From Gammaproteobacteria bacterium (GTDB lineage Bacteria > Pseudomonadota > Gammaproteobacteria > SZUA-152), in NCBI GenBank assembly GCA_021647705.1, contig JAKIUF010000039.1:1-42214 (forward strand): 42,214 nt of DNA, written 5' to 3'. Shown here piece after piece: positions 34,153 to 42,214 of the stretch; the stretch's first letter is position 1; each line of letters opens with the position of its first letter. The notes beneath the pieces are model-generated. The model ran no database searches and had not been told where the DNA came from. It worked only from the letters and a program-made list of their open reading frames with translations. Position numbers and translations under genes: made by a program.

Positions 34153-34305
34153 GTATCGGTGTGAGAATACTCGTTACGCGGTGACCCTAACAATCTTGTG
34201 GTGTAATAGCAATAAAAATAAAAACACGATGTATAAGAGCCTCTTAAAATGTGAATTAAGCGCTGAAAATACTTTTTTTAACAAATTACCCGGTATTTAA
34301 CACTA

Positions 34306-35158
34306 GGGCCTGTTGACGTTTCACCTTGGTAACCAAAGAAAGCTGCAAGCGAGTGCCAGCATGCTCTGATAATTTCGCTTTAATTTGTCATATCTCGTCG
34401 CAATTGACCGGAAATGCTTAAGGCGAGCAAAGACATTTTCAACCAAATGCCGATACTTGTACAAGCACCAGTCCATATCATCATTGCCAACCGTTGAATT
34501 GCTTTTCCTCTGAATAACAGGAATTGATCGCTTTTCTTTAATTTGAATGCGCAAGGCCTCGCTATCATAACCCTTGTCCGCAATGACATATTCACTTCGT
34601 GGTAACGCCTCTACCAACACCGGGGCCGCCTTGCAATCGTGAGCCTGACCACCGGTGAGCATAAACAAAACCGGTAACCCAAACGCATCAACCGCCATGT
34701 GGATTTTTGTGGTTTTGCCCCCTCGGCTATCCCCAATTCCCTGATCTGCTGCGCTCGCAGCAGCGGCACTGTGTTGGTGGGCTTTTACGATGCTGCCATC
34801 AATAAACGCCCATTCCAAATCAGGTTCATTTACCAGCGATTGAAATATCTTCATCAGTTTATCTTTTGATGACCAATCGTTGAAGCGTTTGTACACCGTA
34901 TTCCACTGGCCAAAATAATCAGGTAAATCTCGCCAGGGGCAGCCAACACGTAGTCGATAGAAGATTCCTTCAACAATCAGTCGATGTTTTGGCTTGTCAT
35001 AGATATTTTCCGCACGCATGATGGTACGCAGCTTCAACCAGTGCTCGTCGCTGAGCATTAACCGGGGCATGGCAAACTCGTTTTGTTGTTTTCGCAAAAC
35101 AAACAATACGAGGTTGCCTATTTATTTCAATAGCTTGGCACGAAACGTCAACAGGCCC
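34306..35158 (-). mobile_element. IS5-family insertion sequence, complete
   Basis: Terminal inverted repeats are GGGCCTGTTGACGTTTC (34306-34322) and its exact complement at 35142-35158, flanked by TA on both sides (34304-34305 and 35159-35160), consistent with a TA target duplication as in the IS427 group. One transposase gene fills the element. The ends and gene look intact. Confidence 0.9.
34321..35070 (-). CDS. IS5-family DDE transposase
   Basis: A 249-residue transposase starting PRLMLSDEHWLKLRTIM. The N-terminal DUF4096-type domain (YRLRVGCPWRDLPDYFGQW) is followed by the DDE catalytic core: D91 in WAFIDGSIVKAHQH, D165 in YVIADKGYDSEALR and E211 in RHLVENVFARLKHFRSIATR. The frame is open to 35106 but ATG 35070 fits the family start. 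Its stop lies within the left terminal repeat. No frameshift is needed for expression. Confidence 0.95.
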   Translation of the reverse strand: MPRLMLSDEHWLKLRTIMRAENIYDKPKHRLIVEGIFYRLRVGCPWRDLPDYFGQWNTVYKRFNDWSSKDKLMKIFQSLVNEPDLEWAFIDGSIVKAHQHSAAAASAADQGIGDSRGGKTTKIHMAVDAFGLPVLFMLTGGQAHDCKAAPVLVEALPRSEYVIADKGYDSEALRIQIKEKRSIPVIQRKSNSTVGNDDMDWCLYKYRHLVENVFARLKHFRSIATRYDKLKRNYQSMLALACSFLWLPR

Positions 35159-35405
35159 TAGAGTGCAGAGACGCTGAAGGCGTAACCCTCTGGGTTCCGG
35201 TTAACAACATACTACGAGACGAGGTGCTCTCAGCAAAAAAGCACTTACAGAGTGATTCAGTCCTTAATTCAGCCAAGCTGCACTGACACCCTTGTTATTT
35301 GCTACGATGCGACGTCTGGATATCAGCGTACAGTCCCCGGCCTTTCTGTTGCTTTTTTCAGTTATTATTAATTGCAAAGCCTCGTTCCCAACATATGCTC
35401 ATTCT

Positions 35406-38400
35406 ATGAAAACCCTCATCGACAAAACCGGCAATATTTTCACCTTTCGCCAACGCTCCTCCGGCCAGCCTGCGGCCAAAAACAGCAAATCCTTCCGTAC
35501 CTCTGTTGAGGCACGTACCTTCCTGCAACAATTTCCCTCCGTACAACTGAGCCAGCTGGGTGCTCTGTTCAGCGACGAGAATCAAACACCTCTGACAGAT
35601 CCGGTAAGTATCCAGGCTCAAGTCATCAAAAACCTGTGTAAGGGGTCTCTCGTCGTGACCAGCCCCCCTAGGCCGATACCGAATAACACCGTCAAAACAC
35701 CCGCTGGCACAACACAAAAAACCGGACCGGTGGAATACATCGACCCAGTGCCCGCCAGCGAACCGCCGCCGGCAAATCCGTCCCCTACCGACGCTGAAGC
35801 CACCGAAACCAAAGAGCAGCCCAACGTCACGAAGGAGGCGGAGACGCCCTGTGAAAGCGACCCGGTGAGCATGACCACCGGCGAAGAGCTGCTCAGCCTG
35901 GACGACTTCATGTTACCCGGCCCGGTCCCGCTGGTCTGGCGCAGAACCTACCGCAGCAGCCACAGCCGCAACATCGGGCTCGGCGCAGGCTGGGCCCACA
36001 CCGGGTGCGAACATCTTTTATTGCACGACACCCGCGTGGAATATTTAGACGCCGAAGGCCGGAGCATTCCTTTTGCGCGCCCTCGCATCAAACAACGCAG
36101 CCAGCAGCTTAGCGAAGGGCTCTCTCTGGACTGGGACAATACCGACCAGTTTTGCCTGCACCAGACCGGCCAGCCAGACAAAATCTTCACCCGCATCAGC
36201 GGCAACCACTACCGCCTCAGCCAGCTTCGCCACAAAGCTTACCACCCGCCTGACCGGGACATTGCCCCCCGTCAGCGCGACACCGGCGAGCGCGGCTACG
36301 CCCTGAATTTTCACTACAACGCCCGGGGTCAGCTGACGCGTATCCTGAGCAACCGGGGGCGGGGACTGCTGTTTGAGCGTGATAGCCAAGGCCACATTCG
36401 TGCGATTTATCCGCTGGACACCGACGGACAACCGCTCACTCCCGCCCTTGCCGAATACGACTATGCCGACAGTGACCTCGTCGCTCACCGCAATGCCGAT
36501 GGCCATGGCGAGTGCTATGCCTATCAAAACCACGTCATCACCCGCCGCACCCTCGCCACCGGTTTCAGCTTCCATTTTGACTGGGACCAGCACACCCCCG
36601 AAGGCCGCTGCCAGCGCCAGTGGGGTGATCACGATATTTATCATTACACCTTCGACTGGGATCCGGACAACCACACCAGTTACGCCACCGATAGTCTGGG
36701 CCACACCGCCCGTTATCACTACGATACCCATGGTCGGGTACTGGAAGAAATCGACAGACTGGGTGAGCACACACAGCACGCCTACAACGCCTGTGGCAAA
36801 CGCATCACCACCACAGACCCGCTGGGCCACCAGACGCACTACCACTATGACGAGCAACAGCGCAGCACCGGCTATACTGATGCGCTGGGCCATTACACTG
36901 GTGGCCATTATTTCCGGGGCGAAATGACTAGCTTCTCCGATGCCGCCGGGCACACCTGGCAACGGCACTTTGGCCGCGACGGCCTACTCAGCGAAGTCAC
37001 CGACCCGCAAAAAAACACCACCACCTACACGCATAACCGCGACGGTCTGCTGACCTGCATCACCGACCCGACCGGTCGCAGCACCCGCTACGGCTGGAAT
37101 ACCCTAGGTGAACTGATCCGGGAAACGGATCCCACCGGCAACCATCGACACTACCGCTACGACACCCGAGGCCGGATGATTGCCGTCACCGCACAAGCGG
37201 TAGGCCAACCCTTAAAAAAAGCCCAACAACAAGCCACCACCCGATATATCTACACCGCCAGCGGGCAAATGCGGCGCGTCACCACTCCCGAAGGAGAACA
37301 CCGGGACTTTCAATACAACGAAGCCGGCCACCTGACCCGCTATACCGACGGTCAGGGACGCATCACCGAATACCAGTATGCCAAAGGACTAAGCCAGCCC
37401 GATCAACGCATTGACCCCGCAGGCCACATCCTGCACTACGAATACGACAGGGAGCGCAACCTCACCGCCCTGATCAACGAAAACGGCGACCGTCACACCT
37501 TCACCTACGACGCCAACGAACGCCTGATTCAGGAACAAGGCTTTGACGGCAGAATACAACGCTATGAATACAACCCTGCTGGGCATCTGATCCGACATCA
37601 GGATGGAGATCACATCCAGACAGACTTTGACCGCGACGCCCTGGGCCGACTGCACAGCAAGCTCAGTCGACACCTGATAGACCCGGATCAAAAGCCAGAG
37701 CAAAGCCTATACCGCTATGACCCTCTGGGCCGTTTGATCGAAACCGACAATGAACACCAACACCTGGCCTTTGACTACGATCCCCGGGGTAACATCACCC
37801 GCGAACACCAGCACGACCTCAACGGGGAAAAGCAACGCATTGGTGATCCACAGGACATTCACCACCGCTACAACCCGCTGGGCCAACGCATCGCCACACA
37901 ACGGCCCGATGGTCGGCAGATCCGCTACGACTACCACGAAAGCCTGGGCTTTCAATCCCTCCATTTCGATGGGCAGTTGATCACTCAGGTCCAGCGGGAC
38001 AGTCTGGGTCGGGAAATCACCCGTGAGCAAGGTGAACTGCACACCCGTACAGACTACGACCCGCAAGGACGGTTACAACAACAACGCACCCAACATCAGG
38101 CCCGGCAACACCCCCTGATTCAGCGCGACTACGGCTACGACAGCTTCGGCAATATCAACCGGATCAAAGACGGCAGCGAAGAAACCCGGTACCTTTACGA
38201 CACCCTCAACCGGCTCAAACGCACCGAAGGCAGCCACCCGGAGTTTTTCGACTTTGACCCGGCAGGTAATATCCTCAGCATTAGCGAAAGCCCACATCAC
38301 ACGCCGGGCTTGAGCAAAGGCAACCGCCTGCTCATACAGGGTGACAAACACTTTGAGTACGATGAACGCGGTAATCTGATTAAGGAAACCCGAGGCAAAA

Positions 38401-39446
38401 ACGGCAAGCTTGAAAAACGTTTTCAATACAATTTGCAAAACCAGCTGGTCAGAGTCGAGACCAACACCCGGCACGAAACGGTCACTTACAAATACGACCC
38501 GCTTGGTCGACGCATCGAAAAACACGATGCTTTTGGCTCAACACGATACCAATGGACCGACAACCAGCTGTCCCAGGAAACCCGGAAGGGGATCAAAAAG
38601 ACGTATCTCTACGAACCGGCGAGTTTCCGCCCGGTGGCGCTGGTGCAGGATGATCAGGTCTACCACTACCACCTGGACCATCTGGGCACACCGAGGGAAC
38701 TCACGGACGAACAGGGAAAAATCGTCTGGCGGGTTAAATACAAGACCTATGGTAATGTGGCCCTCAAAGAAATCGAGGACATTGAAAACAACCTACGATT
38801 TCAGGGGCAGTATTTTGATGAAGAGACCGGGCTGCACTATAACCGTCATAGATACTATAATCCTGATACTGGGCAATTTATCAACCAAGACCCCATAGGA
38901 TTACTGGGTGGGGTTAATAATTATCAGTATGCACCCAATCCGACGGGGTGGATTGATCCGTTTGGGTTGGCATGTAAAGAAGAAATTGAAAAGCTGATGA
39001 AATCAACTAATCCTGTTGATCGGCAGAAAGCTATTGATGAAGCTATAATCTTATATAAAATTGATACAGTGGGCATTAAATCTATAACGTACGATCCAAC
39101 ATTAACACACAATGGGGTGGCGTCGTTTGATGGTACAGTTAAAATAGGTAAAGCCGCATTTGCAGCCTCAGCAACAGCTGGATGGCTAGGTTCAACTATT
39201 GCGCACGAAGGTGAAATCCACATAATACAACAAGCTAATAAGAAGCTTTGGTGGGGAGATGAGCAGGGTACTGCACTACAGGAAGTGCAAGCTTACGATC
39301 ATGAGATCAACAAGGCTAAAAGATTTGGGCTTACTGAAACAGAAGTTGCAGACTTGAAGTGGGAAAGAAAAGGCTATTACAGTGATTTAAACGCGGAAAA
39401 TAAAGCAAGGGCTGATAAAGGTGATTTTGCAACATATACAAAATAA
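35406..39446 (+). CDS. Rhs polymorphic toxin with metallopeptidase-like C-terminal tip
   Basis: A 1346-residue Rhs protein. Residues 1-145 are a variable Pro-rich region without a PAAR or VgrG domain or signal peptide. From about 150 the Rhs N-terminal block appears (DPVSMTTGEELLSLDDFMLP, VWRRTYRSSHSRNIGLGAGW), then dozens of YD repeats (GRLIETDN, YDPRGNITRE) forming the cocoon, then the core end LGGVNNYQYAPNP followed by TGWIDPFGLA. The 157-residue tip (1190-1346) has GWLGSTIAHEGEIHIIQQ and GTALQEVQAYDHEI: H-E-x-x-x-H with a downstream E, reminiscent of zinc peptidases but with one extra residue. The core is GC-rich and the tip AT-rich, typical of tip exchange. Start ATG 35406 lacks a clear ribosome site; ATG 35307 or TTG 35292 in the same frame would add a hydrophobic leader. 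Confidence 0.88.
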   Translation: MKTLIDKTGNIFTFRQRSSGQPAAKNSKSFRTSVEARTFLQQFPSVQLSQLGALFSDENQTPLTDPVSIQAQVIKNLCKGSLVVTSPPRPIPNNTVKTPAGTTQKTGPVEYIDPVPASEPPPANPSPTDAEATETKEQPNVTKEAETPCESDPVSMTTGEELLSLDDFMLPGPVPLVWRRTYRSSHSRNIGLGAGWAHTGCEHLLLHDTRVEYLDAEGRSIPFARPRIKQRSQQLSEGLSLDWDNTDQFCLHQTGQPDKIFTRISGNHYRLSQLRHKAYHPPDRDIAPRQRDTGERGYALNFHYNARGQLTRILSNRGRGLLFERDSQGHIRAIYPLDTDGQPLTPALAEYDYADSDLVAHRNADGHGECYAYQNHVITRRTLATGFSFHFDWDQHTPEGRCQRQWGDHDIYHYTFDWDPDNHTSYATDSLGHTARYHYDTHGRVLEEIDRLGEHTQHAYNACGKRITTTDPLGHQTHYHYDEQQRSTGYTDALGHYTGGHYFRGEMTSFSDAAGHTWQRHFGRDGLLSEVTDPQKNTTTYTHNRDGLLTCITDPTGRSTRYGWNTLGELIRETDPTGNHRHYRYDTRGRMIAVTAQAVGQPLKKAQQQATTRYIYTASGQMRRVTTPEGEHRDFQYNEAGHLTRYTDGQGRITEYQYAKGLSQPDQRIDPAGHILHYEYDRERNLTALINENGDRHTFTYDANERLIQEQGFDGRIQRYEYNPAGHLIRHQDGDHIQTDFDRDALGRLHSKLSRHLIDPDQKPEQSLYRYDPLGRLIETDNEHQHLAFDYDPRGNITREHQHDLNGEKQRIGDPQDIHHRYNPLGQRIATQRPDGRQIRYDYHESLGFQSLHFDGQLITQVQRDSLGREITREQGELHTRTDYDPQGRLQQQRTQHQARQHPLIQRDYGYDSFGNINRIKDGSEETRYLYDTLNRLKRTEGSHPEFFDFDPAGNILSISESPHHTPGLSKGNRLLIQGDKHFEYDERGNLIKETRGKNGKLEKRFQYNLQNQLVRVETNTRHETVTYKYDPLGRRIEKHDAFGSTRYQWTDNQLSQETRKGIKKTYLYEPASFRPVALVQDDQVYHYHLDHLGTPRELTDEQGKIVWRVKYKTYGNVALKEIEDIENNLRFQGQYFDEETGLHYNRHRYYNPDTGQFINQDPIGLLGGVNNYQYAPNPTGWIDPFGLACKEEIEKLMKSTNPVDRQKAIDEAIILYKIDTVGIKSITYDPTLTHNGVASFDGTVKIGKAAFAASATAGWLGSTIAHEGEIHIIQQANKKLWWGDEQGTALQEVQAYDHEINKAKRFGLTETEVADLKWERKGYYSDLNAENKARADKGDFATYTK

Positions 39447-39903
39447 TAAATTATTTACCTATATTATTCTTTTATTTCTGTTTTATTCTATTGAGAGTAT
39501 AGCGATGGAACCGATAAAGTTTACCATTGATGTTGATGAAGAAAGTCTTAGATTCACCTTAATCAATACAAGTTACAATGATATTGTAGTAAGCCAAATA
39601 TTGTCTGTGGGCCCTTCTGGCAAACGAGGAAATGTTGAACTTTTTTTTATTGATAAACAAGGTGGGAAACATATTCTTTCGGCCAAAATTAATTTTAGAC
39701 GATCCAAGGAGAGTGACTTTATTTCCTTGTCTCCTGATTCATTTATTGGGAAAATATTTTCATTTGAAAAAGTGAAAAGTTATTATAATTTGGTGCCTGG
39801 GGTGTATAAAGTAGAAGGTTTTTATAAAAATTACGACGGAGAAAAATACGGTGCATATACAGGGAAATCGAATACATCAAAATTATCAATCAATATAAAA
39901 TAA
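39421..39903 (+). CDS. Candidate immunity protein of the Rhs toxin, exported
   Basis: A 160-residue product beginning at GTG 39421 inside the last codons of the rhs gene (26-bp overlap). A hydrophobic signal-peptide-like segment (LFTYIILLFLFYSIESIA) precedes a beta-rich, probably Ig-like mature domain (FTIDVDEESLRFTLINTSYN, LSVGPSGKRGNVELFFIDKQ, LVPGVYKVEGFYKNYDGEKY). No named family recognised. Position directly after a toxin tip is the standard place for immunity genes, and the signal peptide suggests that protection is needed in the periplasm. AT-rich like the tip, so the two likely moved together. Confidence 0.7.
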   Translation: MILQHIQNNKLFTYIILLFLFYSIESIAMEPIKFTIDVDEESLRFTLINTSYNDIVVSQILSVGPSGKRGNVELFFIDKQGGKHILSAKINFRRSKESDFISLSPDSFIGKIFSFEKVKSYYNLVPGVYKVEGFYKNYDGEKYGAYTGKSNTSKLSINIK

Positions 39904-40041: not shown

Positions 40042-40539
40042 ACTGGGATCCGGACAACCACACCAGTTACGCCACCGATAGTCTGGGCCACACCGCCCGT
40101 TATCACTACGATACCCATGGTCGGGTACTGGAAGAAATCGACAGACTGGGTGAGCACACACAGCACGCCTACAACGCCTGTGGCAAACACATCACCACCA
40201 CAGACCCGCTGGGCCACCAGACGCACTACCACTATGACGAGCAACAGCGCAGCACCGGCTATACTGATGCGCTGGGCCATTACACTGGTGGCCATTATTT
40301 CCGGGGCGAAATGACTAGCTTCTCCGATGCCGCCGGGCACACCTGGCAACGGCACTTTGGCCGCGACGGCCTGCTTAGCGAAATCACAGACCCGCAAAAA
40401 AACACGACCACCTACACGCATAACCGCGACGGTCTGCTGACCCGCGTCACCGACCCGACCGGTCGCAGCACCCGCTACGGCTGGAATACCCTAGGTGAAC
40501 TGATCCGGGAAACGGATCCCACCGGCAACCATCGACACT
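40042..40539 (+). pseudogene. Orphan internal rhs core fragment
   Basis: This 498-bp segment is colinear without gaps with 36655-37152 of the intact rhs gene and differs at only a handful of bases (for example CGC to CAC, CTACTC to CTGCTT, TGCATC to CGCGTC). It keeps an open frame from 40032 to TAG 40550 with YD repeats (SLGHTARYHYDTHGR, DPTGRSTRYGWNTLGELIRE) but has no start at its left edge and no toxin tip. It is a duplicated piece of the core, perhaps left by recombination that swapped tips. Confidence 0.85.
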
Positions 40540-40571: not shown

Positions 40572-40746
40572 TTTAACCTGGGAACCTCAGCTGGATCGTA
40601 TTTCAAGTGCCCTTTAGCGTATTGCTGGCAAGGCACAACGACGCGGAATAGCAGGCTCTTTCAAGGCGTTGTAACGCCGCCAGCGGTGCGCTAAAGGGTG
40701 CATGAAGTGCGATAGCGATCTTCACCCAACAGGTGAACAGGTTAAA
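40572..40746. repeat. 175-bp MITE-like element with terminal inverted repeats
   Basis: Ends TTTAACCTG (40572-40580) and CAGGTTAAA (40738-40746) are exact inverted repeats. Inside, CCCTTTAGCG (40610-40619) pairs with CGCTAAAGGG near 40689-40698, extended imperfectly by GCTGGC/GCCAGC, and a central GGCGTTGTAACGCC is a perfect small hairpin. No coding potential. The whole would fold into a long multi-step hairpin, as MITE or REP-derived elements do. It follows the orphan rhs fragment by 22 bp. Confidence 0.7.
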
Positions 40747-41253: not shown

Positions 41254-41583
41254 TTGGAAATTAGATTCAATGACAAAAAACTCCGTCGATTGTGCGAGGA
41301 ACGGGCTGTTGCTGAGCGGAAACTTGGGGCGGCTTGTGCCCGTAAACTGCGTGCGCGCTTGAGCGACCTGGAGGCTGCTTCGGTGGTTACTGAACTGCCA
41401 ACAGGTAATCCTCACCCCCTGAAAGGAGACCGGGCTGGCCAGTTTGCACTCAACCTGGCCGGTGCCAGGCGTCTGGTTTTTTCCCCGGCCAACGATCCTT
41501 GTCCTCGACATGCTGATGGTGGCATTGACGGGTCCCAGGTCACGATTGTAAATATTGAATATATAGGGGATTACCATGACTGA
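41254..41583 (+). CDS. higB: HigB-type (RelE/ParE superfamily) toxin
   Basis: A 109-residue toxin-like protein starting at TTG 41254 with AAGG about 6 bases upstream. It shows the family series EIRFNDKKLRRLCEE, NPHPLKGDRAGQFALNLAG, RRLVFSPANDPCPRHADGG and the end VNIEYIGDYHD. HigB-like toxins cleave mRNA on the ribosome. Its last codons overlap the antitoxin ATG by 8 bp, giving the toxin-first order typical of higBA. Confidence 0.85.
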   Translation: MEIRFNDKKLRRLCEERAVAERKLGAACARKLRARLSDLEAASVVTELPTGNPHPLKGDRAGQFALNLAGARRLVFSPANDPCPRHADGGIDGSQVTIVNIEYIGDYHD

Positions 41584-42214
41584 GTTGAGTGCTCCGTTTG
41601 CGCCAGGCTGGGCCTCCCCCCCTGGCGACACCATTCTCGACCTTATCGAAGAGCGCGGCTGGACTCAGGCTGAGCTGGCTGTGCGGCTGGGTTATAGCTC
41701 AAAACATGTCAATCAGCTGGTCAAAGGCAAGGTGCCGCTCTCTGAAGACGCTGCCTTGAAACTGGAGCGCGTTCTCGGTAGCTCGGTTGATTTTTGGCTG
41801 AGCCGCGAAGCCAAATATCGCACACATTGTGCCCGTTTGGCGGCAGCTCAAACCCATGCTAACTGGATCGGTTGGCTTGATGAACTACCGCTTAAGGAGT
41901 TGATGGCCGTGGGGGCGATTACAAAATGCCGCATTGATGCCAAAGCCAAACCCGCTTTAGTGGGCGCATGTCTACGTTTCTTTGGTGTTGCATCACCGGA
42001 CGAGTGGCGTAATCACTATGGTGGCATGCAGTATAGTTTTCGCCGTAGCCGTGAAGAACAGAGTGATATCGGCGCAATCTCCGCCTGGTTGCGTATGGGT
42101 GAACGCCAAGCCGGAGCGCCAGACGGCCCAAAATATAACCGCGTCAAATTCGAGTCGGCGCTTAAAGCGATTCGTCAATTGACCCGAGAGACGCCACAGC
42201 AGTTTGAACCCAAA
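41576..42214 (+). CDS. higA: HigA-type antitoxin with XRE helix-turn-helix, 5' part (runs off window)
   Basis: Open from ATG 41576 to the window end, 213 codons so far with no stop. An N-terminal helix-turn-helix of the HigA/XRE type is seen at about 15-70 (TILDLIEERGWTQAELAVRL, YSSKHVNQLVKGKVPLSEDA, LKLERVLGSSVDFW). The following region (THANWIGWLDELPLKELMAV, RFFGVASPDEWRNHY, SAWLRMGERQAG) belongs to the long HigA form that usually ends in an ImmA/IrrE-like peptidase domain; that part would lie outside. It should neutralise HigB and repress the operon. Confidence 0.88.
   Translation, partial: MTELSAPFAPGWASPPGDTILDLIEERGWTQAELAVRLGYSSKHVNQLVKGKVPLSEDAALKLERVLGSSVDFWLSREAKYRTHCARLAAAQTHANWIGWLDELPLKELMAVGAITKCRIDAKAKPALVGACLRFFGVASPDEWRNHYGGMQYSFRRSREEQSDIGAISAWLRMGERQAGAPDGPKYNRVKFESALKAIRQLTRETPQQFEPK

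Follow-up and report, generated by a model that had tools for sequence, protein, structure and literature searches.

An Rhs toxin tip with a HExxxH motif and an overlapping, likely exported immunity candidate in a gammaproteobacterial genome

Metallopeptidase toxins active in the periplasm and paired with periplasm-exposed immunity proteins are described for VgrG2b/PA0261 and Tpe1/Tpi1 (PMC6899460), and a 2012 survey of polymorphic toxins lists its metallopeptidases with the HExxH motif, the PVC-metallopeptidase signature being given as HExxHxxQ-E (PMC3482391). The longer HExxxH is unusual as a metallopeptidase motif but has precedents and is credible. In DPP III (M49) both histidines of HEXXGH hold the zinc together with a glutamate from the motif EEXR(K)AE(D); His448, His453 and Glu476, with a spacing of 23 between the last two, are the ligands reported for the B. 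thetaiotaomicron enzyme (PMC5667867). Porphyromonas DPP III is reported to carry HEXXXH (PMC5708649), and the zinc site of a thermophile M49 member with HExxH is described as not significantly different (PMC5805324). In TldD a helix distortion takes up the extra residue (PMC5810440), the HExxxH proteins TMCP1/2 are classed among the gluzincins (PMC10499314) and HEXXXH peptidases with a predicted helix bend are described in some phage polyvalent (conflict) proteins (PMC5512222). Our literature searches found no paper pairing 'Rhs' with 'HExxxH'; of two papers with 'polymorphic toxin' and 'HEXXXH', one is the phage report (PMC5512222) and the other has the motif in its reference list only.

The window, the whole 42,214-nucleotide stretch of contig JAKIUF010000039.1 from a Gammaproteobacteria bacterium, carries an Rhs gene whose last part and next gene are compared here with these systems. 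The features of the locus are as follows.

34300-35164, reverse strand: insertion sequence that immediately precedes the Rhs gene (Pfam DDE_Tnp_1, DUF4096; inverted repeats)
35406-39446, forward strand: Rhs protein gene, ATG 35406 being the likely start (matches to DUF6531, RHS_repeat, RHS and Rhs_assc_core)
35856-35885, forward strand: SDPVSMTTGE, a motif of the autocleavage type found near the N-terminus in Rhs shells, located in the sequence
38889-38969, forward strand: pair of C-terminal autocleavage motifs between shell and toxin, DPIGL and DPFGL, spaced by 17 residues and located in the sequence
38970-39446, forward strand: toxin tip, 158 aa after DPFGL (157 aa from 38973), G+C 39%
39204-39221, forward strand: HEGEIH, tip residues 78-83 with H78, E79 and H83, candidate metal-binding/catalytic HExxxH
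39282-39305, forward strand: EVQAYDHE, tip residues 104-111, E104, which lies within ExxA, being the candidate for a third ligand
39421-39903, forward strand: candidate immunity gene for a protein of 160 aa, starting with GTG and overlapping the Rhs gene by 26 bp, G+C 30%
40042-40539, forward strand: mid-core Rhs fragment of 498 bp, remnant of a second copy, 98.4% identical to 36655-37152

We propose that the tip and the next gene form a horizontally exchanged Rhs toxin/immunity cassette and that the Rhs shell's own cleavage at DPFGL would free the tip. The freed tip would most likely fold into a small gluzincin-like metallopeptidase, in which zinc would be held by H78 and H83 of the HExxxH motif and by E104 while E79 would activate water, and a helix bend would absorb the extra residue as in DPP III and TldD. 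The tip would cut some protein in the periplasm of competitors, and its partner, a small, mostly-beta protein exported to the producer's own periplasm, would block it there, presumably by binding. We place the probability of this whole chain, a periplasm-acting gluzincin-like metallopeptidase toxin with a periplasmic antidote, at about 0.5 because the peptidase and periplasm inferences support each other.

The Rhs reading frame is open from TTG 35292 to 39446 on the forward strand (1384 aa). Pfam and NCBIfam models place DUF6531 at residues 190-261 and Rhs_assc_core at residues 1150-1226, RHS/YD repeats and an RHS domain are also present, and PF05593, PF03527, TIGR01643 and TIGR03696 all match ahead of the variable tip, as in the shell of a polymorphic toxin. 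A PVSMxTGE-type motif opens the shell and DPxGL lies between shell and tip, in agreement with the available description of Rhs motifs, where PVSMVTGE is preceded by a conserved aspartate (PMC8636562). The shell motifs are those described for a T6SS Rhs protein, and cleavage at them is predicted from the sequence. ATG 35307 is another possible start and would add a hydrophobic N-terminus: the additional stretch (35307-35405) is signal-like with a mean hydropathy of 2.1 over 14 residues. If the protein begins there, this N-terminus would suit a Sec-dependent route.

G+C content is 57% for the core but only 39% for the tip and 30% for the partner gene; part of the drop is gradual, the final 500 bp of the core already being at 50%. 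In base composition the AT-rich tip and partner resemble exchanged toxin/immunity cassettes. The overlap of the two genes and the piece of Rhs core beyond the partner also favour an exchanged cassette, while the gradual part of the G+C drop counts against it. The gene directly downstream of the tip, with its 26-bp overlap, fits the position of a cognate immunity gene and is treated here as a candidate. That a toxin/immunity cassette stands at the end of this Rhs gene is, in our judgement, very likely.

An earlier note, made from the letters of the window, had described a 157-residue Rhs tip with HExxxH and a later EVQAYDHE, and both motifs are found in the tip at 38973-39446. E104 lies 21 residues beyond H83, IIQ directly follows HEGEIH and the tip contains four histidines (46, 78, 83 and 110). 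The stop-to-stop frames of the window of at least 100 aa (22,211 residues) contain a single HExxxH and no HExxH. When the tip was shuffled, HExxxH arose in 0.67% of 200,000 shuffles, HEx2-3H followed by ExxA in 0.35% of 200,000 and HEx2-3HxxQ in 0.045% of 300,000, or in 0.008% when a later ExxA was also required; these patterns, the longer ones above all, were picked after the tip sequence had been seen. In the open frames of the window and of further stretches (143,829 residues, three loci with the same tip excluded), the longest pattern has four matches, namely the tip and three of the four loci that a similar pattern had picked out beforehand.

These frequencies bear on a second explanation, in which the tip is a toxin of another kind, such as a nuclease, a transferase or a membrane-acting domain, with an accidental or otherwise used HExxxH, and the partner is its immunity protein. 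We take this to be a serious possibility, if one short of an even chance. A motif found by itself at the shuffle frequency of HExxxH is not vanishingly rare if many tips are read, peptidase profiles give no match to the tip and the poor tip model has no helix at the motif, but a HExxxH that is joined by HxxQ and, at gluzincin-like spacing, by a later ExxA is far rarer, though this combination was chosen post hoc. A HExxxH metallopeptidase is in our view the probable identity of the tip. The likeness to a zinc peptidase claimed in the earlier note stays plausible in that HExxxH is a real metallopeptidase motif and the spacing of E104 fits gluzincins; its weak side is that no peptidase profile matches.

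Compared with M49 enzymes, the tip shares HExxxH and a downstream glutamate in ExxA, with a spacing of 21 as against the 23 described for B. thetaiotaomicron DPP III. Unlike the M49 proteins described, which have about 550-738 aa, HEXXGH or HEXXH, and EEXR(K)AE(D), it has 157 aa and an isoleucine before H83. Membership in M49 was rejected on HEGEIH lacking the glycine, EVQAY in place of EExRA and the missing Pfam match. The resemblance to VgrG2b/PA0261 and Tpe1/Tpi1, as these are described, lies in a metallopeptidase-type toxin followed by a small downstream gene with a product in or facing the periplasm. Those toxins carry HEXXH on a VgrG or as cargo, whereas here the carrier is an Rhs protein, the motif is HExxxH and the genome has no T6SS marker; assignment of the tip to the VgrG2b/Tpe metallopeptidases was rejected on HExxxH and on the lack of a significant Pfam, NCBIfam or PDB-sequence match. 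Like the Tox-MPTase1-5 and PVC toxins, described as small zincin-like domains behind RHS repeats, the tip follows such repeats, and its HExxxHxxQ...E recalls HExxHxxQ-E; unlike the HExxH of those toxins, its motif is one residue longer, and no Pfam model matches. With HExxxH instead of HExxH and no such Pfam match, the tip was rejected as a member of either group, and the likeness is one of resemblance only. The HEXXXH peptidases of phage polyvalent proteins, compared by their published description, are conflict-related zincins as proposed for the tip, on other carriers.

Searches of Pfam, NCBIfam, PHROGs and PADLOC assigned the tip to no family of toxins or peptidases. Its only profile match is to DUF6531, an Rhs N-terminal domain, over residues 66-102 at E 0.05-0.13, below cut-off; the Tox-MPTase1-5 and PVC-metallopeptidase (DUF4157) models in Pfam do not match it at E up to 5 and 10, and PDB sequences gave chance-level matches with a best E of 0.94. 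The statement of the earlier note that the toxin family could not be named agrees with this outcome, nothing being above cut-off or clearly significant in any of these five collections. That none of these searches linked the tip significantly to a peptidase counts against a metallopeptidase tip. The sequence pattern of a gluzincin, HExxxH and a downstream Glu, is present in a tip whose single-sequence AlphaFold model reaches a pLDDT of 42.4. In this model the HExxxH region lies in strands (block pLDDT 28-30) and E104 in a helix. The prediction is poor because no alignment was available, too poor for reading zinc-site geometry from it, and the strands at HExxxH in so low-confidence a model carry little weight against a metallopeptidase.

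The tip finds only itself in its own genome at E up to 1. It has matches in 2 of 186 genomes of relatives and 2 of 369 of the class (E up to 0.01), in 4 of 398 of a phylum set (E up to 0.05), in 1 of 24 of its own order and none of the 25 and 298 genomes of the G435 genus and family (E up to 0.001), and in 1 of 250 of the G129 family (E up to 0.01). These sets overlap and the genome of the window is counted wherever it was in a set; the matches other than the window itself, in G162, G539, G621, G171 and G1201 (E 0.006-0.04), were judged to be chance. The G171 alignment (L005) lacks the HE motif, those of G539 and G621 (L003, L004) span residues 7-74 only and gave no tip match in a tblastn re-run, the G1201 locus (L021) was inspected, and the judgement on G162 (L002) is based on its ORF list only.

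Plasmids gave no tip match under E limits of 0.1 and of 10, nor did phages at E up to 10. A peptide-pattern scan of IMG/VR matched 24 stretches, none of them confirmed; two further pattern sets had no match, and another had one, in a large protein judged unrelated and phage-tail-like. A degenerate-pattern scan of contigs from 84,980 species gave four matches without a tblastn relation to the tip; the pattern demanded a CAC histidine codon, the glutamine and EVxAY, and more divergent relatives could escape it. One of the four (L009:344-772) is a small protein that carries HExxH, HxxQ and EVEAY and resembles DUF6647, just below the cut-off of that model; its pattern is an ordinary zincin-like one that parallels the motifs of the tip, and the likeness of its EVEAY to the EVQAY of the tip is imposed by the search pattern. 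At the DNA level, the cassette has short matches in 31 plasmid records, none covering 80% of it and the best 20 of the 31 covering 3-6%, and none in E. coli genomes at E up to 0.1. A second copy of the tip by which its co-occurrence with the partner could be judged was not found in the genome, plasmid, phage and IMG/VR searches made. Tips like this one may exist in other Rhs proteins.

The partner gene consists of a leader (39421-39504) and a mature part (39505-39900). Residues 1-28 form a hydrophobic, signal-peptide-like leader that ends in SIA, and among 20,000 dinucleotide shuffles 0.25% were stop-free, equally hydrophobic and provided with an AxA-like end. The earlier note's account of a next gene that overlaps the tip by 26 bp and has an export-like leader is borne out, the gene starting at GTG 39421 and so few shuffles doing as well. 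Export of the partner, as predicted from this leader, is likely but not certain because translation from an internal ATG at 39505, which has a GAGAG stretch upstream as a putative ribosome site, would give a protein that lacks the leader. That ATG gives rise to another explanation, in which the partner is a cytoplasmic immunity protein made from ATG 39505, the tip acts in the cytoplasm and the leader is a by-product of AT-rich sequence; such a partner would be compatible with a metallopeptidase tip. The GAGAG stretch speaks for it, as does the composition of the 58 bases before the ATG, which are 79% A+T and in which the frame stays open in 13% of shuffles. The further demands of hydrophobicity and an AxA-like site leave just the 0.25% given above, and it is the GTG start that makes the two genes overlap, as those of toxins and their immunity proteins often do. 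We consider a cytoplasmic partner distinctly unlikely and a periplasmic site of action probable.

For the mature part, single-sequence modelling gave a largely beta structure that includes two short helices, at low confidence (pLDDT 55.9). With this model, the best Foldseek match had an E of 0.055 and VIA gave no Z of 5 or more, results too weak to interpret. Two profile matches of the partner are weak and non-significant, NF047662 (E 0.05, scoring 13 bits where the cut-off is 240) and phrog_36074 (function unknown, E 0.019), and the best PDB sequence match has an E of 1.4. Of 186 genomes 2 have a match to the partner, its own and, weakly, G119 (L011, E 0.007); plasmids and phages gave none, and none of 10 IMG/VR pattern matches was confirmed. 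These searches established no relative of the tip or of the partner.

The genome of the window (4.44 Mb, 82 contigs) is about 96% complete and gave no match to TssK or TssB, an assembly gap being possible; TssB is matched in 9 of the 24 genomes of the host order, 8 of them above cut-off, and the control for both searches matched 1 of 14 named genomes, that of E. coli. In the 1384-aa Rhs frame Pfam found no PAAR domain, a mark of a T6SS-type N-terminus. Delivery of this Rhs protein by a T6SS of its host is unsupported because neither TssB nor TssK has a match in the host genome. Delivery may have depended on a system since lost or hidden by an assembly gap, or may take another route, as proposed for Bcn-A. 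This Xanthomonas Rhs-type bacteriocin is reported to be T6SS-independent, culture supernatant showing its activity and a type II secretion mutant having lost it (PMC7259588).

The surroundings of the gene raise the further question of whether the locus is decaying, the Rhs promoter or original N-terminus having been lost to the insertion sequence and no secretion system being left, so that the pair would be inert or the immunity gene alone would be kept; the reading of the tip is compatible with such decay. The insertion sequence, a DDE transposase (34321-35106, reverse strand) between 23-nt inverted repeats (34300-34322 and 35142-35164, 96% complementary), ends at 35164, about 240 bp ahead of the likely Rhs start. 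The missing PAAR match, the absence of TssK and TssB and the Rhs core fragment downstream, which we read as the remnant of an Rhs rearrangement, also point towards decay. Against it, the Rhs gene can be read from ATG 35406 without interruption for 1346 codons, genes may be missing from a genome of this completeness and contig number, and the report on Bcn-A describes an Rhs-type toxin that does without a T6SS. On balance we regard decay as unlikely. A scan for promoters and terminators was of no use, with 9 promoter-like sites where 4.4 were expected.

If the metallopeptidase tip is real, a working HExxxH would be a motif missed by annotation based on HExxH, the form in which the 2012 survey gives its tips (PMC3482391), and the pair would be a new enzyme and inhibitor with a possible periplasmic target. 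The stronger statement, that an unnamed family of HExxxH-gluzincin Rhs tips has its first representative in this tip, which would act in the periplasm, be paired with an unnamed mostly-beta periplasmic inhibitor and be delivered without a T6SS, seems to us somewhat doubtful.

The genome carries three Rhs cores in all, the other two with different tips. In one of these, on contig 23 (L025:3-3291), a second Rhs gene has behind its tip an ORF of 149 aa whose beginning (LFGCGSS) resembles that of a lipoprotein, another candidate for an exported immunity protein. In the window, a 35-nt inverted repeat (77% complementary, 49-nt spacer) with a MITE-like look lies at 40595-40713 behind the Rhs remnant. 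Further on, at 41254-42214, a HigB-like ORF (E 0.006, below cut-off) is followed by an HTH protein that runs off the contig, possibly forming a toxin-antitoxin pair.
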